A DNA stretch of 64,000 bases from Acidobacteria bacterium 28-9 (GTDB lineage Bacteria > Acidobacteriota > Blastocatellia > Pyrinomonadales > Pyrinomonadaceae), in the NCBI GenBank assembly GCA_002050355.1, contig MWYY01000063.1, positions 1 to 64,000 of the forward strand, read 5' to 3'. Position numbers and translations under genes: made by a program. Below the pieces are notes generated by a model. That model worked only from the letters and a program-made list of their open reading frames with translations, was not told the origin of the DNA and did no database searches. Numbering within the stretch: position 1 is the stretch's first letter; the number at the start of each line of letters is the position of its first letter. Positions 4,041 through 27,660 of this stretch are shown piece by piece.

Positions 4041-4601
4041 ATGAGTGTAGCTACTTTAACCAAAGATACAAAACCAAAAATGGAAGCAGTTATCGAAGAC
4101 TTTAAACGCAGATTGTCCAATGTTCGCACGGGACGCGCGACAATCGGTTTGCTCGACAGCGTGATGGTTGATTATTACGGCGTTCCAACGCCGCTCACAC
4201 AAATGGCTTCGGTCAATGTCCCCGAAGCGCAAATGCTTATGGTTCAGCCCTGGGATGCCACGCAAATCGGCGCAATCGAAAAGGCGATAAATGCGGCAAA
4301 TCTGGGGATGAACCCGTCAAACGACGGAAAAGTCATTCGTCTTTCCATTCCGCCGCTTACCGAAGAACGCCGCAAGCAAATGGCAAAACAGGTTTACGAA
4401 TTTGCCGAAGAACATCGTGTCGCGCTTAGAAACGTTCGCCACGCTGCAAACGACGCTTTGAAAAAAATGTTAAAAGAAAAGGAAATTTCCGAAGACGATG
4501 AACGCGGCGGTTTGGACGACGTTCAAAAGCTGACAAATACTTTTGTCAGCAAAATTGACGAACTCGCTAAAAATAAAGAACAAGAAATTATGAGCGTGTA
4601 G
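4041..4601 (+). CDS. frr: Ribosome recycling factor
   Basis: This 186-residue protein splits post-termination ribosomes together with EF-G. Family features are the N-terminal helix with FKRRLSNVRTGRAT (about residues 22-35), the VPEAQMLMVQPWD segment, IPPLTEERRKQMAKQ in the middle, and a C-terminal helix. Length is standard (185). The ATG at 4041 follows GGAAGGA at 4032-4038. It is the last gene of the translation cluster; the next gene is convergent. Confidence 0.97.
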   Translation: MSVATLTKDTKPKMEAVIEDFKRRLSNVRTGRATIGLLDSVMVDYYGVPTPLTQMASVNVPEAQMLMVQPWDATQIGAIEKAINAANLGMNPSNDGKVIRLSIPPLTEERRKQMAKQVYEFAEEHRVALRNVRHAANDALKKMLKEKEISEDDERGGLDDVQKLTNTFVSKIDELAKNKEQEIMSV

Positions 4602-4613
4602 TTTGGAAGTAGT

Positions 4614-4664
4614 AAATCGTAAATCGTGAATAGTTTATTCTTCTCTATTCACGATTTACGATTT
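4614..4664. repeat. Perfect 20-bp hairpin between convergent frr and a LolA-like gene
   Basis: Bases 4614-4633 and 4645-4664 are perfect reverse complements over 20 bp with an 11-nt loop. The arm is a heptamer series (GTAAATC GTAAATC GTGAATA). The right arm, CTATTCACGATTTACGATTT, occurs again at 52272-52291. It could act as a bidirectional transcription stop between the convergent genes, but it lacks a clean T-run. Confidence 0.85.
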
Positions 4665-4683
4665 ATGATTCACTATTTGCAAT

Positions 4684-5433
4684 CTATTTACTTATTGAAA
4701 AAACATCATCGGCAATCTGAGAATTGACCAAAATTTCTTTTGCCTTAAAGTCCGAATAAATAGTCAGTTGTCCTAAATCGAACCGTTGCGCGTAGCGTTC
4801 GGGAATTTTCACGCCGTCAACCTCGCGCAGTTTGTCAATATCAACCGAAGTCGTTACGCTTCTGCCGTTTATTTCATAACTCGCTTCGTAACTTTTCACC
4901 AATCCGGTTTTCTCGTCAATAAAAAAATCAGTGTAAAAACCTTCGGGCGACGTGATGCGAAAGCCAAATTTCTTTTTGTTTTTTTTCGACAACGCGGAAA
5001 CTGTAAAATCTTTTTCTCCGATTCGCTGCAAAAGCGGAAAGCCAAGGCGATTGAGCGGTGGAAGTTCTAAACCTGTGATGGACGACGAAGTTTGCTGTCC
5101 GTCGTAAGTTTGCTTGAACGGTTGAATCGGGTTTGAAACTTCAAGACGATATTTTTCGCCCGAATAAATTGTTGCGAAAGTTGCGGGAAAAGTCCCTAAT
5201 GGCGTGCCGGAAATATCCGCCGTGCCGCGAACAACCAAGGTTTTCATCATTCTAAACTTTTCGCCGCCGTGCGCCGTTGAAGTTGCTTTAGCGAGTTCCA
5301 AAGGCGAAACGGTTTTCGGAATGCTGTTCGCTGCTGGCTGCTTTTCCGTTTTCTTTGTTTTTTCATTGGTTTGGGAAAATGCATTGGTTGCGGCAAAAGC
5401 TAATACGATTGCCAAAATTGTAATTTTTTTCAT
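4684..5433 (-). CDS. Secreted LolA-like outer-membrane lipoprotein-sorting family protein
   Basis: This 249-residue protein has a clear Sec signal peptide (KKITILAIVLAFAATNAFS, cleavage near residue 20) and is therefore probably periplasmic. The body alternates short beta strands, for example LVVRGTADISG, RLEVSNPI and FFIDEKTGLVKSYEASYEINGRS. This resembles the open beta-barrel fold of LolA/LolB-type proteins and related acidobacterial proteins. It lacks enough signature to call LolA itself. The ATG at 5433 is preceded by GGAG. It may form a unit with the TonB-dependent receptor upstream on the same strand (117-nt gap). Function is unassigned beyond fold-level resemblance. Confidence 0.6.
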   Translation of the reverse strand: MKKITILAIVLAFAATNAFSQTNEKTKKTEKQPAANSIPKTVSPLELAKATSTAHGGEKFRMMKTLVVRGTADISGTPLGTFPATFATIYSGEKYRLEVSNPIQPFKQTYDGQQTSSSITGLELPPLNRLGFPLLQRIGEKDFTVSALSKKNKKKFGFRITSPEGFYTDFFIDEKTGLVKSYEASYEINGRSVTTSVDIDKLREVDGVKIPERYAQRFDLGQLTIYSDFKAKEILVNSQIADDVFSISK

Positions 5434-5550
5434 AACTCTCCTAAGAATGTGTTTTACTACGGGGAAAGCGAACCGTTCAAAATACGCAAAAAGAAGGACA
5501 AAAGTTTAACTTTTCATCCTTCCTTTTGGACATCTTGATTTGAATACGGT

Positions 5551-8611: not shown

Positions 8612-9803
8612 GGAAGCTCAACTTATAAAATAAAAAAATATAAATTGCGTATCGTTGAGCTACCAACCGTTGAACCGCTGCCTCATGACAATCGAATTTT
8701 ACGGAAGAATCGAGTTGTCTAGTCCCGGAATCTGCAAACCACCGTCCTGACCTCCGCGTTGTCTTCCAGTCGCTGTTTGCTGCTGCGCTTTGAGAAACGG
8801 CTCGACGCCGGAAAGCAGTTTTATCGCGTTAATACGTTCGGCAATGGCATTTTTCGTGCTGGAGACGGCAATCATATCACCGACTTTTAAATCGGCAATT
8901 GTAATGCTCGGAAAGCGTTCGAGCATATCGTCAATGTTTCCGCCGCCCACACGCATTCCTCCACCGCCTTGCCCTATTCTATTGGGATTTGTTCCCGATT
9001 CAGCGTTTGACTGACCTGCTTGTCGCGGCGGACGTGCCGCACCTTGTCGCGGCGGACGTGCCGCACCTTGTCGCGGCGGACGTGCCGCACCTTGTCCTCC
9101 GGGCGTCATTGTACCGGTGCCAGTTTGCATAGCCTGAAACTGCGCCATTCTTTGCGCCATTTCCGCCGGAAATCGTTTGAGAACAGCGTTTTTTCCGAGC
9201 GCAATGGGGAAGCTCAACTTATAAAATAAAAAAATATAAATTGCGTATCGTTGAGCTACCAACCGTTGAACCGCTGCCTCATGACAATCGAATTTTACGG
9301 AAGAATCGAGTTGTCTAGTCCCGGAATCTGCAAACCACCGTCCTGACCTCCGCGTTGTCTTCCAGTCGCTGTTTGCTGCTGCGCTTTGAGAAACGGCTCG
9401 ACGCCGGAAAGCAGTTTTATCGCGTTAATACGTTCGGCAATGGCATTTTTCGTGCTGGAGACGGCAATCATATCACCGACTTTTAAATCGGCAATTGTAA
9501 TGCTCGGAAAGCGTTCGAGCATATCGTCAATGTTTCCGCCGCCCACACGCATTCCTCCACCGCCTTGCCCTATTCTATTGGGATTTGTTCCCGATTCAGC
9601 GTTTGACTGACCTGCTTGTCGCGGCGGACGTGCCGCACCTTGTCGCGGCGGACGTGCCGCACCTTGTCGCGGCGGACGTGCCGCACCTTGTCCTCCGGGC
9701 GTCATTGTACCGGTGCCAGTTTGCATAGCCTGAAACTGCGCCATTCTTTGCGCCATTTCCGCCGGAAATCGTTTGAGAACAGCGTTTTTTCCGAGCGCAA
9801 TGG
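8612..9803. repeat. 596-bp direct tandem duplication (units 8612-9207 and 9208-9803)
   Basis: The two units appear identical where I compared them, including their translations in three frames. The bases flanking the unit differ on both sides (C at 8611 against G at 9207; T at 9804 against G at 9208), so the junction has no terminal homology. The unit contains the last third of the DUF5666-like gene and about 90 bp downstream of it. No transposase, target-site duplication or inverted terminal repeat is seen. It is either a recent illegitimate duplication or an assembly error. Confidence 0.9.
8699..9262 (-). pseudogene. Truncated second copy of the DUF5666-like gene
   Basis: From the junction at 9207 down to 8699 this reading frame repeats the C-terminal part (about 169 residues) of the gene at 9295-10569, including the three GAARPPRQ repeats and the terminal DNSILP. 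It has lost the signal peptide and N-terminal domains. The first 18 or so residues of the open frame come from non-coding sequence read through the junction. It is a by-product of the 596-bp duplication rather than a functional gene. Confidence 0.8.
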
Positions 9804-10569
9804 TTACGTCCTTTTTGGTTTGGATATTGTTAATGGTGATTTCGTTTCGCTCGGCGTTTACGGCTGTAATCGTGCCGCCGACGGTTTGAAACGAGCCGGT
9901 TACGATTTTTTCCGCCTTAATCGTCGCGCCGTCTTCACTTTTGTCGCCTAGAGCGCGAATCGAATCGCCGACTTTTATTTCACCAAACGAACTTGTCTTA
10001 ACTTCGTTATAATCCACCGAATCAGGCGCATAACGACGGAAATCTGCATTGTCTTTTAGAGTTAAGACAGTTTTCCTTTCGCCCATAATACTGCGCATCG
10101 ACACTGTGATTTCTTTCGTCTGCGGATTGACGGCGGCGACTTGTCCGGTAATTCCGCGCGTGCGCCATTCTTCGCGTTCCTTGTTTTGCTTTTGCGCGAT
10201 GTCGGATTTTGTCATCAGATAAACCGCTTTCGCCGGAACGCTTTTTTTATCGGCTGAAAATATTCCGGTTACAATCAGTTTGTCGCCCACGCCGATGTCG
10301 GTTAAATTTCCCGCCGTCGCCGTTTTGAGACTCGGGTTTTCGGGCGAGACACGTTTGTATTCGGTTTTGTCGGACAGAACAACGTCAATTGCACTATCCT
10401 TTGTCTGCAATACGATTTTGCCACTGTCGATTGAAGACACATCACCGGTTGCAAGGCTGAGTTTTACTTTTGTCTCCGAAGTGCTTGGCGCGGTCGTTTG
10501 TGCCGCGATTGTGCCAGAAAAACTTGCCAAAAATATAAAAAGACCAAATAAAATATATGTTTTACGCAT
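9295..10569 (-). CDS. Secreted protein with repeated DUF5666-like domains
   Basis: This 424-residue protein has a signal peptide (LFGLFIFLASFSGTIAAQ, cleavage near residue 24). Three or four similar beta-rich modules follow, each combining a GxVxxVdxxxxxItv-type strand pair with a VGDxI/L turn (IGVGDKLIVTG, IKVGDSIRALG, LKVGDMIAVSS). This is the pattern of DUF5666/OB-like repeat proteins. Residues near 280-310 hold three exact copies of an 8-residue unit, GAARPPRQ, encoded by a 24-bp tandem repeat. The protein is complete despite the duplication, because the duplicated unit includes its stop codon. The ATG at 10569 is preceded by an AAGG motif. Function is unknown; it is probably periplasmic or surface-located. 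Confidence 0.65.
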   Translation of the reverse strand: MRKTYILFGLFIFLASFSGTIAAQTTAPSTSETKVKLSLATGDVSSIDSGKIVLQTKDSAIDVVLSDKTEYKRVSPENPSLKTATAGNLTDIGVGDKLIVTGIFSADKKSVPAKAVYLMTKSDIAQKQNKEREEWRTRGITGQVAAVNPQTKEITVSMRSIMGERKTVLTLKDNADFRRYAPDSVDYNEVKTSSFGEIKVGDSIRALGDKSEDGATIKAEKIVTGSFQTVGGTITAVNAERNEITINNIQTKKDVTIALGKNAVLKRFPAEMAQRMAQFQAMQTGTGTMTPGGQGAARPPRQGAARPPRQGAARPPRQAGQSNAESGTNPNRIGQGGGGMRVGGGNIDDMLERFPSITIADLKVGDMIAVSSTKNAIAERINAIKLLSGVEPFLKAQQQTATGRQRGGQDGGLQIPGLDNSILP

Positions 10570-12312: not shown

Positions 12313-12687
12313 CTATTTCAAAAATTTAATCGTCAAAGGATATTCCCAAAACTCACCGTTGTTTGCCTTTATTCCGCCGATAATCGGAAAAACAAATCCC
12401 ATTATGGCGAGAGCTATAAAGCCTAAAATTCCGACTAAAACAAATAATAAAACAAAACTTATCGCCGCGTAGATGAGGCTTGAAATCATCCAATTGGTAA
12501 TCATTTTCCCGTGCGCGTCGAGCGCAGTCATTTCATCTTTTTTCACTTGCCAAAGCACAATCGGGACTATTATTCCGGCTGGCGGCAACACAAAATTCAA
12601 AAGCTGGGACAGATGCAAAAACAATCCCATCTGTTTTTGTTCCGGAGTTTGCAAAGACATTTGCGGCTGCGGCTGCATGTAATTCAT
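12313..12687 (-). CDS. DUF4870-family small membrane protein
   Basis: This 124-residue protein has a polar start followed by three hydrophobic helices. It includes LSQLLNFVLPPAGIIVPIVLWQVKKDE and a later VLLFVLVGILGFIALAIMGFVFP region, the typical DUF4870 pattern (HLSxLxxFxxPxxGxIxPLIxWxxKKDxxP). Function is not established. It sits between the ECF sigma factor (10-nt gap) and the anti-sigma factor (0-nt gap), indicating a single operon and perhaps a role in sensing or transducing the envelope signal. Confidence 0.8.
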   Translation of the reverse strand: MNYMQPQPQMSLQTPEQKQMGLFLHLSQLLNFVLPPAGIIVPIVLWQVKKDEMTALDAHGKMITNWMISSLIYAAISFVLLFVLVGILGFIALAIMGFVFPIIGGIKANNGEFWEYPLTIKFLK

Positions 12688-12696
12688 TGTTTTCTC

Positions 12697-13302
12697 CTAG
12701 ACGCCCTTAAAACCTCTATCGTTGAAAATTTCGCGCATCATCTCGCGCGCCCGAAACAAGCGGTTTTTGACAGTTCCAAGCGGCAAATTCGTGATTTCCG
12801 CTATTTCGTCGTAGCTCAAATCCTGCGCGTGTCTCAGAAGAATCAACTCGCGGTAAACCGTCGGCAGACATTTGACGACCGATTCGATTTCTTTGCGCCA
12901 TTCGCTGCGCTCGCGTTCCTGTTCGGGCGTCGGATTCGGGCTTTCAATCTGCAATTGAAAGCTGCCATCGGCATTTTCCGCTTCAAGGCTCTGCGGATTG
13001 ACCGAATTTTTCCGCATAAAATCAATCGCCGCGTTGTGTGCGATTCGATAAAGCCAGGTTGAAAATTTGTAATCGGAACTGTATCTTTCTAGTGAATTAT
13101 AGACCTTGATAAAAACTTCCTGCGTTACGTCGAGCGAAGCATCATAATTGTTCAACATTCGATAAACGTAAGCGGTTATCGGGCGCTGGTAACGACGGAC
13201 GAGTTCTTCAAAACCGTCTTCACGCCCGCCAATGGCTTTTGCAATCAACTCGCCGTCGGTTAAATTTCGGACATTCTCAAGTACAAATGCTTGTCTTATC
13301 AT
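12697..13302 (-). CDS. ECF-family RNA polymerase sigma factor
   Basis: This 201-residue protein has sigma region 2 at about residues 28-95 (FEELVRRYQRPITAYVYRML, DVTQEVFIKVY, FSTWLYRIAHNAAIDFMRK). Region 4 is at about 135-190 (CLPTVYRELILLRHAQDLSYDEIAEI, LGTVKNRLFRAREMMRE). There is no region 1.1 or 3, as expected of ECF factors. It is followed by a DUF4870 protein and a zinc-finger anti-sigma factor, the standard arrangement for envelope stress control. No autoregulated promoter could be identified with confidence. Confidence 0.9.
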   Translation of the reverse strand: MIRQAFVLENVRNLTDGELIAKAIGGREDGFEELVRRYQRPITAYVYRMLNNYDASLDVTQEVFIKVYNSLERYSSDYKFSTWLYRIAHNAAIDFMRKNSVNPQSLEAENADGSFQLQIESPNPTPEQERERSEWRKEIESVVKCLPTVYRELILLRHAQDLSYDEIAEITNLPLGTVKNRLFRAREMMREIFNDRGFKGV

Positions 13303-13370
13303 GATGCAAAGTCAATACGGTTTTTTTGTAACTTGGTTTCAAATAAATTCAAACTTTAAACCTTGAACTC

Positions 13371-14309
13371 TTATTTCCATCCGAGAGCAGCAAGTCCCGC
13401 GGGCGCGGCAACTTCGTCGAAATTTAACGCCTGATTTGGGATATTTAACCCGACATCTTCAGGTTGAAGAATATTAAGCGTTCTGCCGAGCGCTTCGGCG
13501 GCGATTTCATTTAATTTAGCCGGAGCCAAATCTTTTCCGACGACGAGAAGTTTTTCCAGAAAATTTTCGCTGGCGTCTCCGCCGCCCAAACGGTCTCGGT
13601 AGAACATCAACAGACGATAGATTTCGTCGTCTCTTTCGCTTTCGGTACAAGTAACCGAACGGACAACGGTCGGCTCTGCACCGCGCATAATCAGAGCGAC
13701 AAATCCGTCGGGCTGTGAACTGATAAGAAGTGAATCACCCGTTTTATTTTTATTAAAAAGCCAATTCGCTTCACTAACGGCACGCGGCAAAATCAAGCCT
13801 GCCTGCCAGCCGAGCATTTCAAATAAAGTTTCGTATTCGTCAATCACGCTGAGTTTGACGGCAGTTGCAAAATAGCGAGATTTACCGACGGTGTCCGATG
13901 TGATTTTTCGTCGCGTAATCCGCAATTCGCCAGCCGGAACTCCGAATGTATTTTCGGCTTTCCAATCCAGAACTTGTGATAATTCATCTTTTGAAGCCGG
14001 TTCGCTCTCGAGCGTCAAAATTGCCGTTCGCGCCGTGTTGCTCGGCAAGGATACAGACCACCGTTTCCGATTTCTCAAACCCGCGTTCGTTACCGCTTCT
14101 TCGAGAAAAACAATCATCTCAGCGGGACTTTTGATGTTTTGTTCGATAAAATTCGGCGTCAAAAGATGTTCGGGCAGATCGACCGTAGCTGCCTGCTTGA
14201 TACCGAAACGCCCTCTGCCCTCTCTTTGTAAAGCCAGAGCAGTTACGCTTTCCTGTTCCAAGCCGAGCGCGGCTTTCGGATAATTCGGTTGGATTATATT
14301 TTCTAACAT
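13371..14309 (-). CDS. PilM-like type IV pilus / type II secretion assembly protein
   Basis: This 312-residue actin-like ATPase-fold protein carries an early LGLEQESVTALALQ strand-turn-strand, the WSVSLPSNTARTAILTLE segment, and DELSQVLDWKAENTFGVPAGELRI. These are typical of PilM or the cytoplasmic half of GspL. It lacks the membrane helix of GspL. It is the last gene of the gspF-gspE-secretin-pseudopilin run on the same strand. Expected role: a cytoplasmic scaffold for the inner-membrane platform. No pilN/pilO-type gene follows in this operon. Confidence 0.65.
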   Translation of the reverse strand: MLENIIQPNYPKAALGLEQESVTALALQREGRGRFGIKQAATVDLPEHLLTPNFIEQNIKSPAEMIVFLEEAVTNAGLRNRKRWSVSLPSNTARTAILTLESEPASKDELSQVLDWKAENTFGVPAGELRITRRKITSDTVGKSRYFATAVKLSVIDEYETLFEMLGWQAGLILPRAVSEANWLFNKNKTGDSLLISSQPDGFVALIMRGAEPTVVRSVTCTESERDDEIYRLLMFYRDRLGGGDASENFLEKLLVVGKDLAPAKLNEIAAEALGRTLNILQPEDVGLNIPNQALNFDEVAAPAGLAALGWK

Positions 14310-14316
14310 TTTTTAT

Positions 14317-14385
14317 TAATGGTAAATGGTGCATCATAAATCAAGAGGATTTCTTACATTCACCATTAATCACTGACCATTCGTC
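14317..14385. repeat. Heptamer-repeat hairpin between pilM-like and pseudopilin genes
   Basis: TTAATGGTAAATG at the left pairs imperfectly with CATTCACCATTAA near 14360. The word TTAATGGT is shared with the hairpin at 1154-1234. It lies between two same-strand genes of an operon. Confidence 0.65.
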
Positions 14386-14390
14386 ATTAT

Positions 14391-14810
14391 TTAATAGTCT
14401 TCAAATTTTTTGCCGTCGCTATCCTCGCCTTCGTTTAGTGTCTTAACATCTTTCAAACCTTGTTCAGCGTCCGGTGAGGTCGTATCTTCGCCTTGAATTT
14501 CCTTCCATTCGGCTTTTCCCAAAACCGGGTCAATCGGTATTTCACTAAAATAACGTTCTGTGACTAAATCACTTACCGATTTGGGTAATTTTCCTTTATC
14601 GACTGTGTATTGTTGAATGGCACTGCGTATTTGCCGAAGATTTTCAGCAAGAACCGTTTCGCGCGCGTGTTGGACGGTTCTTTGATATGCCGGCAAACCT
14701 ATCGAGAGCAAAATAATTATGACGAACATCGAAATCATCAATTCCAGCAGGGAAAACCCGCTTTCGACTTTCGATTTCAAACTTTGAACTTTTAAGAATT
14801 TACCAATCAC
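14391..14810 (-). CDS. Type II secretion pseudopilin, GspG-like
   Basis: This 139-residue protein carries a prepilin signature at residues 18-30 (G followed by FSLLELMISM, with Glu at mature position 5) and a hydrophobic N-terminal helix. Peptidase cleavage after Gly18 would give a mature pseudopilin. The C-terminal GEDSDGKKFEDY resembles the GspG calcium-binding end, as does the DPVLGKAEW segment. The 18-residue leader is encoded by a heptamer series (TTCAAAG TTTGAAA TCGAAAG TCGAAAG). The gene overlaps the upstream pseudopilin by 11 nt. It could be the major or a minor pseudopilin. Confidence 0.78.
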   Translation of the reverse strand: MIGKFLKVQSLKSKVESGFSLLELMISMFVIIILLSIGLPAYQRTVQHARETVLAENLRQIRSAIQQYTVDKGKLPKSVSDLVTERYFSEIPIDPVLGKAEWKEIQGEDTTSPDAEQGLKDVKTLNEGEDSDGKKFEDY

Positions 14811-15504
14811 TGTATTTTTCTCCGTTTAACGCTTCCCCCTCAGAACTCGAACGTACGTCGAAAACATTAATTTCGTCCCAATCGCCGCTGTCTTTCGGTT
14901 GATAAGAAGAACGGAATTGCCAATCGGACTTCCCTGTCATCGGGTCATTTGGCAACTCACGCAAGTAAACTTTATTGAGTTCCTTTTCCTGATTTAAATC
15001 GGTCGCGTTTTTGTCGCCGAATATCTCATTTGTTTTCACATTTAAACCGCGCGGCTTAATTTTCACGCCTGAAACTAAAACGTCGAGAGTCGGCGGATAA
15101 CGGTCGAGATTTTCCGTGTCAAACATCTTGCAATCGTCAATGACAACGCGGCTCCGCGGGTCTGACTGATTACTTCCACCAAAGTTAGGCGGAAGGCTTC
15201 TGCCCGGGACTGCGCCTTGCGGACACGCGCCGATTGTATCTCTGTGAAATTCGTCAATCGCCGAACGAATCAATCGCAAATCTTCGCGCAAGCGTAATTC
15301 TTTTTCGCGTTTGACCGCATTTTGCATAAGAGGAATCGTTCCCATTACTAAAACTGCGAGAACGGTTAAGGTAACGATAAGTTCAAACAATGTAAAACCA
15401 GAGTTCACAAGTGAGGGACGAAGGACGAGGGATAAGTTTCCTTTACTCATCCCTCGTCCTTTATCTGTTCTACTTTGTCTCCGATTTTTTAACTTTAAAG
15501 TCAT
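14800..15504 (-). CDS. Type II secretion pseudopilin, GspG-like, larger paralogue
   Basis: This 234-residue protein has the prepilin motif G followed by FTLFELIVTLTVL near residue 36. DPMTGKSDW and the C-terminal SSSEGEALNGEKYSDW correspond to the GspG pattern, with an internal insertion of about 80 residues carrying two Cys. From the ATG at 15504 the leader is 35 residues long, unusually long. An internal ATG (Met19) would give a more usual leader of about 17. That internal start lies in the loop of a 13-bp hairpin. The gene begins 5 nt after the secretin stop. Confidence 0.75.
   Translation of the reverse strand: MTLKLKNRRQSRTDKGRGMSKGNLSLVLRPSLVNSGFTLFELIVTLTVLAVLVMGTIPLMQNAVKREKELRLREDLRLIRSAIDEFHRDTIGACPQGAVPGRSLPPNFGGSNQSDPRSRVVIDDCKMFDTENLDRYPPTLDVLVSGVKIKPRGLNVKTNEIFGDKNATDLNQEKELNKVYLRELPNDPMTGKSDWQFRSSYQPKDSGDWDEINVFDVRSSSEGEALNGEKYSDW
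15411..15461. repeat. Heptamer-repeat hairpin inside the pseudopilin leader
   Basis: AAGGACGAGGGAT (15421-15433) and ATCCCTCGTCCTT (15449-15461) are perfect 13-bp reverse complements with a 15-nt loop. The left part reads GAGGG ACGAAGG ACGAGGG (period 7). It is translated as part of the prepilin leader, and the candidate internal start codon lies in its loop. Confidence 0.85.
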
Positions 15505-15509
15505 CGTTC

Positions 15510-18041
15510 TTAGTATTTAATCGAAAAATTCTTGCCATCGGCGGTCAGAAAATTCAAGACATCACGATCAAGCGTGACGACGGGTTGACCGTCGGCTAAA
15601 GCTTCAACTTCGACGTAGGCAAGAATTCCCGAACTATTTTCGGCTGTATCTTTTGCCGAAGACAGCGCAACGAACATTTTTCCGTCTTGATTGAAAAACG
15701 GTTTTGCAGACGTTTGCGCCATTTGGGTGCCGAAAACTTCGCCGAACGAAACGCTGCGAACCGCCAATTTTTTCTGGTCAAACCTCATTCCTATAACCGC
15801 CGAGCGAAATGCCGTCGCGCTTTTTACCATAACGGCGATTTTTGTTCGCTCGCCTGCTTTCATTACAGGTAGAGTTTGCAGGAATTGAAGTTCAGCAACA
15901 GGTGCGAACGGATTCGTCGTCTCATTTTGCGGCTCTTCGTTTGATTTCAATGAAGTTTCCCGCATTGCCGGCTTGTTTTCCGAAGTATCCGCAGTCGGCG
16001 CTATTTGTAGAGTTTGTACGCTCGCGTCAATCGGGCGCAGATTACTCACCATCGTTTGATTTTTTTCAGGTCTCTGAATTACAGCGGTCGCTTGAGATTG
16101 CGCTGAACTTGACGACGACGCGGTTATTTTCGTATAAGTCGGCGCTTCCAGCTTTTGGTCAGGCAATTGAACTTGCGCCACTGTCGGGAGCCGTCGGGCG
16201 GCAGCGAGCTGCTCTTCGATTTCTTCTTTGATAATCATCGCTTCCAGTGACCCGCTGGTCGGCACGGCAAGGCTTCCCGTCGGTCGTTCGATTTCATCTT
16301 CCGGCAAAATTGCCGGCGCGCGAATTACTCTCGGTGTAATGGCGATAACGACATCAACTTGTTGATTGTCTTTTTTTGGCGCGCTAAAAAGCCTGCCCAG
16401 CACCGGGATTAATCCTAGAAGCGGTATACCTGTTCGTCCGTTACTTTCCTTGCCCTGCGCGACGCTTGCCAGCATCAGCGTTTTATTGTTCTGAATGCGC
16501 GCCGTTCCTTTAATCGTGCGCTCGGTAAAAATCGGATTTCCACTTGCTGTCGCGGTGGGTACTACATCTTTTGATTCAATTTCCATCGCTACTTGAACAT
16601 CCTGATTCGGAAAAACAATCGGCTTAAATTTTAGGGTCAGACCGGTTTGCTCATAATTGTAAACATCTCCGACAAAACCGCCGCTGTTATTATTAGGGGT
16701 AGTTCCGGCGTTGTTGAAACCGTTTGAAATGGTCGCGCTTCTAACCGGAACGCGCTGACCGATACGCGCCGAAGAATCTTCATTATTAAAGGCGTGAATT
16801 TGTGTCGAAGCGATAAGTTTCGAGTTGTCTTTATTTTGCAGAGCTTGAAAACTAATGGCAGGAATAACCAAACCCAATCCGAATGATGTTCTTCCGATAA
16901 TTCCATTATTTCCGGCTAAACCCACAACGCCACGATTTGTTCCGCCCAAATTTGAAAGCGTCGCGCTGTCACCTATTTGAGTGCCGAATTGCATCAATTC
17001 CGTTTTTGAAACTTCATAAATCTGAACGTCCATAACGACTTCGGCGCGGTCTTTGTCGAGCGAACTTATCAATTTGCCTATAAGACGAATATTTTCTTCC
17101 GTATCACGAATCGTCAGGCTGTTTGTCGCTTTGTCAATCAGTGCTATCGTAGGAGTTCTGCCCGGTTGCGCCGGAATCGCCGTTCTGATTAAATCGGCAA
17201 CTTCTTTCGGGTCGGCGTTTGCAAGATAAAATGTTCGCAAAACAAGCTGCTGGAAATTTTGGCGGCGATTTTGACTCGCTACCATAATCGTTCTCGGTCC
17301 GACTTTTTGGAAAAACAAATTCTCCTGCAAAAAGATGTAATCGAGCGCCTTTGCCGCCGTAACGTTTTTCAACTCGATGGAAATCTTGCGATTCTCACTG
17401 CCGCGAAACGAATCTGAATCAAACAGTACGTTTAAATCCAAATCTTTCGCTAGTTCCTTGATAAGAAACTTCAAATCGACTCCGCCCGGAAACGGCACGT
17501 CGCGTAGTCTTTCGAGTTTTTGCGGAACGACCGTGTCCGGCGTCGGCTGTTTTTGATAACCGGTCGGAACAAGCTGAACGCCGCCGTTGCTGCTGCCGAC
17601 GCCGTTGCTGTTTCCATTCGTTTTATTGTCGGGATTTTCGCCGTCTATAACAGCTTGCTGCAAGCGCAGCATCCGTTCCATTTCGGATTTCGCCAACTCA
17701 TTAACCGGATCGTAACCATAAGCCTTACGAAAAGCGAGATATGCACCCGCGTAATCTTTCTCGTTTGCTAAACTCGTTCCGCGCTTCATATACATCTGCG
17801 AAGCATTAAACAGAGCGCGCGTGTAATGCAGGCGATATTCGGGATTTTTCGGATTGTCGGCAACCGACAGTGCAAATTCCTCAACTGCTTTGTCCCATTG
17901 TTCGGCGACTTCTGCGTCCATTCCCAACTTAAAATGTTTTTTGCCGTCATTACCGCCAGCCGCCAAAACCGAGGTTGGCGAGAGTAATGAAATAAACAAA
18001 AGCAGACAAATCGAGAAACGAGTAAAAGTGGAGTTTTTCAT
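15510..18041 (-). CDS. Secretin (GspD/PilQ-like) with TPR N-terminus and cohesin-like C-terminus
   Basis: This 843-residue outer-membrane channel subunit has a signal peptide ending VLAAGG near residue 29. A TPR-like region follows at about 33-130. An STN/N0 domain (about 185-255, GVDLKFLIKELAKDLDLNVLF) and a secretin N1 repeat (about 262-340) come next. The secretin core is at about 345-590, with RIGQRVPVRSA, TGLTLKFKPIV and GIPLLGLIPVLGRLF. After a linker, residues about 715-843 form a beta-rich module starting LPVMKAGERTKIAVMV that matches the cohesin-like domain of some acidobacterial and deltaproteobacterial secretins. Secretins normally end soon after the core, so the tail is an added module, perhaps for surface or peptidoglycan contact. 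Confidence 0.85.
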   Translation of the reverse strand: MKNSTFTRFSICLLLFISLLSPTSVLAAGGNDGKKHFKLGMDAEVAEQWDKAVEEFALSVADNPKNPEYRLHYTRALFNASQMYMKRGTSLANEKDYAGAYLAFRKAYGYDPVNELAKSEMERMLRLQQAVIDGENPDNKTNGNSNGVGSSNGGVQLVPTGYQKQPTPDTVVPQKLERLRDVPFPGGVDLKFLIKELAKDLDLNVLFDSDSFRGSENRKISIELKNVTAAKALDYIFLQENLFFQKVGPRTIMVASQNRRQNFQQLVLRTFYLANADPKEVADLIRTAIPAQPGRTPTIALIDKATNSLTIRDTEENIRLIGKLISSLDKDRAEVVMDVQIYEVSKTELMQFGTQIGDSATLSNLGGTNRGVVGLAGNNGIIGRTSFGLGLVIPAISFQALQNKDNSKLIASTQIHAFNNEDSSARIGQRVPVRSATISNGFNNAGTTPNNNSGGFVGDVYNYEQTGLTLKFKPIVFPNQDVQVAMEIESKDVVPTATASGNPIFTERTIKGTARIQNNKTLMLASVAQGKESNGRTGIPLLGLIPVLGRLFSAPKKDNQQVDVVIAITPRVIRAPAILPEDEIERPTGSLAVPTSGSLEAMIIKEEIEEQLAAARRLPTVAQVQLPDQKLEAPTYTKITASSSSSAQSQATAVIQRPEKNQTMVSNLRPIDASVQTLQIAPTADTSENKPAMRETSLKSNEEPQNETTNPFAPVAELQFLQTLPVMKAGERTKIAVMVKSATAFRSAVIGMRFDQKKLAVRSVSFGEVFGTQMAQTSAKPFFNQDGKMFVALSSAKDTAENSSGILAYVEVEALADGQPVVTLDRDVLNFLTADGKNFSIKY

Positions 18042-18189
18042 AGTTTTAGTATTTGAAGTGAAATGGACTTCCCTATCTGCAAAAATAATCGGTGTCAGAT
18101 TTTACACGCGACGTTAAATGTTAAGTTTCAAAAAGATTCTATCGAGACAAGCCTATTTTGCTTTATTTAAGAAATTTCTTCAACATTTT

Positions 18190-24637: not shown

Positions 24638-25900
24638 TTAACCTATAGCAAAAACCTCTCTTTCTTCGCCCAAGTCGCGCGCCGAGGGCGTGATAATAGA
24701 TTTTGCAGTGATAAAAATTTTCTCACCGTTTTCGATTGCCCGTTTCACATCTTCCTCGCTGACAAAATCAACCGTTTTCGGTTTCGCGCCGTTTCCGGAA
24801 TTTTCGGTTTTCAATTCGTGAATAATTGTTTTTACCGGATTTAGAGAATTTTGGATTTCTGTTTGTGATGATACGGGCGCAGAATCCGTCAGCATCGTAT
24901 TCACACCTGCATTAAAACTCGATGGCTCGTCTATTTTTGTTCTCAAAAACTTATCGACAATCGCGGCAATTTCCTCGCGCTTTATTTTTCTTTGGTCATT
25001 TGATTGCCGATTCCCGATTGCGAATTGTGCTTCTTCTTCGCCCACCGGCAAATTATAAATTTTCGCTCTTAAATTATTTTTTGCAGCGTTTGTCTGACTT
25101 GTAACTGGCTTTGTCTCGAAAGCAACGCGCTTGATGTCCATTAAATGAAGCGGCGAAACGTTGTCGCTTGTTACGTTTCCGCCCCACGAACCACAGCCGA
25201 GTGTCATCGAAGGAGCTAAATCGGTTGAAAAACCAATTGCCCCATGCGTCGTCGGCGAATTTATAACGATTCGAGAAGCCGGCATCTTCGCGCCGTATTG
25301 AATCGCCGCGTCACGACTTTCGGTGTGCATTCCGGCAGTGTGTCCCATTCCGCCGAACTGCAAAATTTCCAAACAACGCTGCGCGCCCTGCTCAATTCCG
25401 TCGGCGACGAAAAACGCCAGCGTCGGCGAAAGTTTTTCGATTGACCAAGGAAAATCGCGCCCGACGCCGCCGCAATCAGCCAGCAGACAGCGCGTTCCGT
25501 TTGGAACGGAAATTCCTGCGAGATTGGCGATAAATTCGGCGGATTTGCCCACTATTTTCGGGTTCAAAGTTCGCTGCTCGGTTAATAAAATACTGCCGAC
25601 GGCTTCGGCTTCGGTTTGATTTAAAAAATGTCCGCCTTGCAGTTTGAATTGCTCACGCACTTGCGCTTCTATTGGAGCGTCAACGACGACCGATTGCTCG
25701 GAGGCGCATATCGTGCCGTTGTCAAAACAAGTTCCGGTCAAAATATCCGAAACCGCTTTTTCGACATTCGCTGTTCTTTCGACAAAAACCGGAACGTTTC
25801 CCGGTCCGACACCGAATGCGGGTTTACCGGAAGAATATGCGGCGCGCACAAGACCGGTTCCGCCGGTTGCCAGAATAACCGCCGTTCGTTTGTGTTTCAT
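24638..25900 (-). pseudogene. Truncated downstream copy of the CoA-acylating aldehyde dehydrogenase
   Basis: This 420-residue open frame starts at the internal ATG 25900 and repeats the dehydrogenase from [14 protein letters not shown] onward. It then carries the native C-terminus ([19 protein letters not shown] to EREVFAIG), which the upstream copy has lost. The N-terminal part of the cofactor-binding domain (about 187 residues) is missing, so activity is unlikely. It keeps the [11 protein letters not shown] catalytic segment. It arose from the 1,211-bp tandem duplication. If the duplication is an assembly error, it is simply the 3' part of a single 603-residue gene. Confidence 0.8.
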
Positions 25901-27193
25901 CAAAGTTTCCGTGCCTTCGATGGTTGCGTGCGATAAACATCTAATCGCGTCGGGCGGCAGACCTTCTTTGATGCCGGCTTCGCCGTTTTCGGTTTCGCGC
26001 CGTTTCCGGAATTTTCGGTTTTCAATTCGTGAATAATTGTTTTTACCGGATTTAGAGAATTTTGGATTTCTGTTTGTGATGATACGGGCGCAGAATCCGT
26101 CAGCATCGTATTCACACCTGCATTAAAACTCGATGGCTCGTCTATTTTTGTTCTCAAAAACTTATCGACAATCGCGGCAATTTCCTCGCGCTTTATTTTT
26201 CTTTGGTCATTTGATTGCCGATTCCCGATTGCGAATTGTGCTTCTTCTTCGCCCACCGGCAAATTATAAATTTTCGCTCTTAAATTATTTTTTGCAGCGT
26301 TTGTCTGACTTGTAACTGGCTTTGTCTCGAAAGCAACGCGCTTGATGTCCATTAAATGAAGCGGCGAAACGTTGTCGCTTGTTACGTTTCCGCCCCACGA
26401 ACCACAGCCGAGTGTCATCGAAGGAGCTAAATCGGTTGAAAAACCAATTGCCCCATGCGTCGTCGGCGAATTTATAACGATTCGAGAAGCCGGCATCTTC
26501 GCGCCGTATTGAATCGCCGCGTCACGACTTTCGGTGTGCATTCCGGCAGTGTGTCCCATTCCGCCGAACTGCAAAATTTCCAAACAACGCTGCGCGCCCT
26601 GCTCAATTCCGTCGGCGACGAAAAACGCCAGCGTCGGCGAAAGTTTTTCGATTGACCAAGGAAAATCGCGCCCGACGCCGCCGCAATCAGCCAGCAGACA
26701 GCGCGTTCCGTTTGGAACGGAAATTCCTGCGAGATTGGCGATAAATTCGGCGGATTTGCCCACTATTTTCGGGTTCAAAGTTCGCTGCTCGGTTAATAAA
26801 ATACTGCCGACGGCTTCGGCTTCGGTTTGATTTAAAAAATGTCCGCCTTGCAGTTTGAATTGCTCACGCACTTGCGCTTCTATTGGAGCGTCAACGACGA
26901 CCGATTGCTCGGAGGCGCATATCGTGCCGTTGTCAAAACAAGTTCCGGTCAAAATATCCGAAACCGCTTTTTCGACATTCGCTGTTCTTTCGACAAAAAC
27001 CGGAACGTTTCCCGGTCCGACACCGAATGCGGGTTTACCGGAAGAATATGCGGCGCGCACAAGACCGGTTCCGCCGGTTGCCAGAATAACCGCCGTTCGT
27101 TTGTGTTTCATCAAAGTTTCCGTGCCTTCGATGGTTGCGTGCGATAAACATCTAATCGCGTCGGGCGGCAGACCTTCTTTGATGCCGGCTTCG
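24772..27193. repeat. 1,211-bp direct tandem duplication inside the aldehyde dehydrogenase gene
   Basis: The units are 24772-25982 and 25983-27193 (1-nt ambiguity, a single shared C). All six-frame translations I compared between the units are identical. Since 1,211 is not a multiple of 3, the junction shifts the frame. This ends the upstream copy at 25900 and leaves the downstream copy without its N-terminus. No mobile-element features are present at the ends. Confidence 0.92.
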
Positions 27194-27660
27194 CGCATCA
27201 CGCGTGCCGTTTCGGTAATCGAACGCGCGGCTGACGGATGTGGCGAAAGAACAATAGTATTACGTGATTTGATAGCGATAATGATTTTGAAAATCGTCGT
27301 CGAAGTTGGATTTGTTGAAGGAATAATCGCTGCGACAACGCCGCGCGGTGAAGTAATTTCTATAATGCTTTCGGTTTGACTTACGATGCCGACGGTTTTC
27401 AGTGTGCGAAAATAATTCCAAACGTCTTCTGCTGCAAAACGATTTTTTTCGCGCTTGTCTTCGGCGCATCCAAATCCGGTTTCCTCGTTTGCCATCTGAC
27501 CGAGACGCATTGATTCGGCGAGCGCGACTTGCGCCATCGCTTCGCAAATTCGGTCAATTTTTGTTTGGTCGAATTTCGCAACCGTCTGAAACGCCAGATA
27601 CGCCGACTCGACCGCATCGCGCGCTTCCTGTTGTGAAATTAAATCCTTATCTTCCGGCAT
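25900..27660 (-). CDS. CoA-acylating aldehyde dehydrogenase (EutE/PduP-type) with shifted C-terminus
   Basis: This 586-residue enzyme is expected to convert an aldehyde to acyl-CoA with NAD+ inside the microcompartment. N-terminal helices include [20 protein letters not shown]. The Rossmann region has [18 protein letters not shown] and [20 protein letters not shown]. The catalytic Cys is in [11 protein letters not shown] near residue 246. After the core (about 1-450), a linker of about 100 residues contains a heptamer-repeat segment. The last 27 residues after GAKPKT are read out of frame because of the tandem duplication. The undisrupted gene would be 603 residues and end with [19 protein letters not shown] then [10 protein letters not shown], which looks like an encapsulation or docking peptide. 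Upstream is a BMC shell gene. Confidence 0.88.

Follow-up and report, generated by a model that had tools for sequence, protein, structure and literature searches.

The window analysed here, a stretch of 64,000 nucleotides free of N bases, comprises bases 1-64000 of contig C51 in a draft genome (G000) whose relatives place it in the family Pyrinomonadaceae. The draft measures 3.65 Mb over 117 contigs, with a completeness of 86.6% and a contamination of 2.6%. Between 23757 and 28135, BMC-H-type shell genes flank an aldehyde dehydrogenase gene, with a small zinc-ribbon membrane protein in between. The aldehyde dehydrogenase matches PF00171, sits between two BMC shell genes and is presumably of the CoA-acylating type. 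The locus is possibly of the ACI type, a kind of microcompartment known from Acidobacteria. As written, the gene is interrupted by a direct repeat of part of itself, with the following features:

24772-25982, unstranded: first copy of a 1,211-bp unit, an exact match to 25983-27193
25983-27193, unstranded: second copy of the unit; base 27194 also continues the match
25982/25983, unstranded: junction between the two copies, located by self-match
25900-27660, minus strand: open reading frame of 586 residues, made of residues 1-559 of the aldehyde dehydrogenase and a 27-residue foreign tail (PF00171, E 5.3e-27)
24638-25903, minus strand: open reading frame of 421 residues, a 5'-truncated second aldehyde dehydrogenase copy that keeps the native C-terminus (PF00171, E 7.9e-7)

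Comparison of the window with itself yields a maximal exact match of 1,212 bases at an offset of 1,211 (24772-25983 against 25983-27194), that is, two copies without any mismatch and with exactly one base common to both ends. A preceding sequence-only reading had described an exact tandem duplication of this unit at 24772-27193, with at most one base shared by its ends; both statements hold, the coordinates being correct to within the one shared base. Its account of the coding consequences is likewise borne out. The unit is not a multiple of three (1,211 = 2 mod 3) and shifts the frame, such that the frame as written diverges from the one-copy reading at residue 560, where the junction creates the 27-residue tail. 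A whole gene of 603 residues in the one-copy reading is converted into a 586-residue protein with a new end and a truncated fragment of 421 residues downstream.

All 99 loci of relatives match the aldehyde dehydrogenase, and in 96 of them the match to the one-copy reading reaches at least residue 598 (E <= 1e-5). At the same threshold, the frame as written is matched to residue 575 or beyond in 0 of the 99 loci, leaving the foreign tail unmatched; for one locus (L066), one listing gives a match over residues 1-586, the end of which is gone at E <= 1e-5. Wherever the best match in a genome is a full relative, as in 26 genomes, a single open copy is present; among the 29 relatives searched, G001, G012, G027 and G028 gave weak or partial matches only. 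With few exceptions, the named relatives of the enzyme come from draft genomes under the labels Pyrinomonadaceae, Blastocatellia or Acidobacteria, and plasmid records gave no match to the gene.

The window contains another exact tandem duplication, which the sequence-only reading had missed. Its two copies share no base at their ends:

8612-9207, unstranded: first copy of a 596-bp unit, 596 identical bases at offset 596
9208-9803, unstranded: second copy of the unit, located by self-match

Here a DUF5666-like frame of 424 residues (9295-10569, minus strand) is intact, and the first copy of the unit bears a spare 3' fragment of it. The DUF5666-like gene also carries short in-frame 24-bp repeats (PRQGAARP) at 9019-9096 and 9615-9692.

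We surveyed the window and 80 further stretches of the same genome for abutting direct repeats of at least 150 bp. The 81 stretches hold 1,433,852 bases without N, of which 4,000 were counted twice, or about 39% of the genome; cases that lie across stretch borders are missed, so that the counts are lower bounds. The survey returned 26 tandem duplications, 23 of them letter-perfect, or about 16 exact cases per Mb; by extrapolation, the whole genome would hold near 60 exact cases. The units measure 150, 235, 520, 528, 534, 566, 566, 571, 589, 596, 641, 643, 668, 672, 714, 725, 772, 801, 828, 858, 888, 924, 1088, 1211, 1228 and 1581 bp, most of them in the range 520-1228 bp. By contrast, the same kind of scan, applied to relatives (119 loci or stretches with 1,261,083 bases and 1,165,157 distinct 31-mers, the latter count given because some of these loci overlap one another), found 0 tandem duplications. 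At an offset of 3,725, the control locus L194 carries a short direct repeat that is not tandem. Short tandem duplications with units of 30-500 bp number two in G000 (235 and 150) and two in the controls (35 and 46): the excess in G000 is confined to long units. The literature searched, judged from titles and abstract openings, contained no report of such a pattern in Pyrinomonadaceae.

Three of the 26 pairs are inexact, with 1, 4 and 39 differences (units 566, 1228 and 1581). In the 1,228-bp pair (L147, G000:C23:1-20000, 12517-14972), the four differences are clustered within 89 bases. The 1,581-bp pair (L009, G000:C20:1-20000, 14954-18115) lies partly in the gene of a trypsin-like TPR protein, and 33 of the 35 differences inside the gene are synonymous despite the truncation of one copy. 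Such a synonymous ratio would not persist in a dead fragment; the copies perhaps are alleles of two strains placed side by side, or an older pair in which the truncation is very recent.

The sequence-only reading had offered three explanations for the 1,211-bp repeat, namely a mutation of very recent date, a phase-variation state that can revert and an assembly artefact. In the phase-variation explanation, RecA-type recombination between the copies would restore the gene, and any exact 1.2-kb tandem duplication can indeed collapse in this way to return the whole 603-residue frame. A phase-variable gene would, however, be expected to show both states among relatives or reads and a route in both directions. 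The duplicated tail occurs in 0 of 99 loci of relatives and a tandem duplication in 0 of 119 control loci, the ends share one base and offer no repeat from which the duplicated state could be regenerated, and the same structure recurs at 25 other, unrelated places in the genome. Phase variation is therefore very unlikely, and nothing marks the aldehyde dehydrogenase out as a switch.

The junctions and positions of the duplications are those expected by chance. Among the 23 exact junctions, the two ends share 0 bases in 14, 1 in 5, 2 in 3 and 3 in 1, against 12.9, 6.0, 2.5 and 1.0 in 20,000 random placements of units of the same lengths. Likewise, 9 of the 26 units lie inside a single frame, where random placement gives 9.35 (s.d. 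2.34), which leaves no sign of selection; of these nine, six cause a frameshift and the other three duplicate sequence in frame. The junctions are thus indifferent to sequence, and the positions to genes. In a Salmonella sequencing study (PMC3411829), microhomology was present at the junctions of the verified rearrangements, the cut-offs deduced being 8-12 bp, and simulated chimeric reads gave the shorter overlaps. Direct repeats of about 8-12 bp or more, as expected at the endpoints of a spontaneous duplication, are missing here, with 1 base at the aldehyde dehydrogenase and 0-3 in the 23 exact cases.

Bacteria do undergo tandem duplication, and gene conversion could preserve the identity of the copies. 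The repeat could be a genuine tandem duplication of very recent origin, either fixed in the sampled population or common there, which arose without homology by replication slippage or end joining and knocked out the aldehyde dehydrogenase. The identical copies and the clean reading frames around them favor this explanation. Against it, 39% of the genome would have to hold 23 such duplications, this one included, with no trace of selection, and the junctions share 0-3 bp, as random joins do, where the Salmonella study gives cut-offs of 8-12 bp (PMC3411829). With 23 exact cases, no sign of selection and random-like junctions, a very recent mutation is possible but unlikely.

This explanation would also have to include the loss of the only thymidylate synthase found. 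At 4310-5452 of another stretch (L152, G000:C29:1-20000), an exact 571-bp tandem duplication splits a thymidylate synthase gene. Its one-copy reading matches PF00303 with E 1.8e-106; as written, it falls into two incomplete pieces that cover positions 1-235 and 38-266 of the 266 in the profile. No ThyX and no other ThyA were found in G000, although at 86.6% completeness the draft could lack a thymidylate synthase gene that the organism has. Among 19 relatives, 12 have a PF00303 match, one each, that in G005 being a fragment at a contig edge. Since no thymidylate synthase was found other than the one broken by the 571-bp unit, it is implausible that a population of cells is fixed for this state.

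In a different biological reading, the organism would belong to a natural 'tandem duplicator' lineage. Replication or repair would here make homology-free tandem duplications of about 0.5-1.2 kb chromosome-wide, dozens at once and at high frequency. Were this true, many genes, including those for aldehyde dehydrogenase and thymidylate synthase, would be disrupted in some of the cells, and recombination would repair them. We consider such a lineage highly doubtful.

The contig ends provide insight into how the genome was put together. Exact matches elsewhere in the sampled stretches were found for 12 of 58 contig ends, five by 127 bases, two by 128, two by 133 and three by 62-80. One of these ends lies in the window itself:

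1-127, unstranded: start of contig C51, which recurs inverted at the far end of C51 (end of L026, G000:C51:154714)

The far end of C51 also matches the start of contig C29 (L152), the shared sequence being a repeat at contig ends that the assembly left unresolved. Shared ends of constant length are a trace of a de Bruijn graph, here with k = 127, and 127 is a usual top k value for SPAdes-type assemblers. The overlaps thus appear to be the mark of an assembly of G000 as a de Bruijn graph with k = 127. In addition, at four of 47 contig starts the sequence opens with a unit's tail (127, 127, 80 and 62 bases), and the whole unit (396, 480, 387 and 153 bases) then follows. These four starts look like loops left open, which indicates that a back link existed in the graph. 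As the 1,211-bp unit far exceeds the contig-end overlap of 127, an exact repeat of this length could not be placed by k-mers; a loop could only be walked twice.

Two further candidates were considered and set aside. Inverted repeats of at least 40 bases within 4 kb, a companion sign of in-vitro inverted chimeras, are few both in G000 (4) and in the controls (6 rows, 5 of which are one place in L114) and give no help either way. The long contigs C29, C40 and C51 were first suspected to be contigs joined after assembly because they are far longer than their neighbours. This idea was dropped: the neighbours run in falling length, with the long contigs 11 places apart, a spacing that presumably reflects the names 3, 4 and 5 in alphabetical order, and duplications also occur on the ordinary contigs C31, C32, C37, C38, C42, C44, C45, C46, C54 and C56.

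Contigs could, in another way, have been joined end to end with their overlap left unmerged, through a scaffolding or gap-filling error that doubles the overlap and creates an artefact without spurious reads. Such an error would yield exact copies and chance-like junctions, and scaffolding can leave duplicate sequence beside Ns (PMC7111523, in the portion available). In G000, however, the stretches read contain no Ns, and masking affects only five short contigs, each over its whole length; the contig-end overlaps seen are 127-133 bases long, not 500-1,200, and the contig starts that bear a unit's tail indicate a link in the graph. We therefore assign this explanation a small share of the probability.

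Taken together, the data favor a graph-loop artefact: with a probability of roughly 0.9, the 1,211-bp duplication would have arisen when a metagenome-type draft genome was assembled from short reads with a de Bruijn graph (k = 127). In such a graph, a 1,211-base exact repeat would form a single edge and the tandem pair a loop, the number of times it is written being the assembler's choice. In the proposed sequence of events, a spurious link joined the end of the 1,211-bp stretch to its own start and closed a loop; the assembler then walked this loop once too often and would have written the stretch twice. The link itself probably came from chimeric molecules or reads rather than from cells, for example when library fragments of about 0.5-1.2 kb were joined bluntly or circularised, because the units cluster at 0.5-1.2 kb as library fragments do and the joins are blunt. 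In line with this mechanism, metagenome graphs are described as riddled with spurious cycles (PMC9104695, in the excerpt available). Of the three explanations first offered, the artefact has much the strongest support, because exact cases are many (23 in 1.43 Mb against 0 in 1.26 Mb of relatives), junctions and positions are chance-like, the sole thymidylate synthase found is broken and contig ends overlap by 127 bases. Several points argue against it. Published errors of this kind are called seemingly rare and are frequent in G000; 3 of the 26 pairs are non-identical, and a loop walked twice gives none unless strain variants are present; and a minority of real duplications could be present in part of the cells of a population.

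A single, intact aldehyde dehydrogenase gene is the most likely state in the organism. As biology, the duplication is most likely without importance; as a warning, it is important. Claims of gene loss, pseudogenes or phase variation drawn from this draft genome would be wrong, with genes cut or doubled in the single-frame cases (9 of 26). A repeat finder run on draft genomes ahead of annotation would catch such doublings at once.

The aldehyde dehydrogenase resembles the metabolosome PF00171 enzyme of acidobacterial ACI-type BMC loci in lying between two BMC shell genes of an acidobacterium; the comparison with those loci (PMC8217296) covers the aldehyde dehydrogenase and the shell genes. With spontaneous chromosomal duplications of bacteria, the repeats share the direct arrangement that is able to collapse again, but the verified duplications in the excerpt of PMC3411829 had direct repeats at their endpoints (cut-off at least 11 bp), whereas those in G000 have 0-3 bases, like random joins. 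They also resemble the published false exact head-to-tail duplications in assemblies, whose copies of hundreds of bases were detected with a repeat finder and had no biological cause; those were called seemingly rare, with large phage records mentioned, whereas the single bacterial draft G000 has about 16 exact cases per Mb. In vertebrate assemblies, false gene duplications reportedly arise from haplotypes and long-read assembly, whereas a short-read de Bruijn loop would be the source in G000. Common to both, as far as the excerpt of PMC9516828 describes it, is that assembly makes gene copies which the organism lacks.
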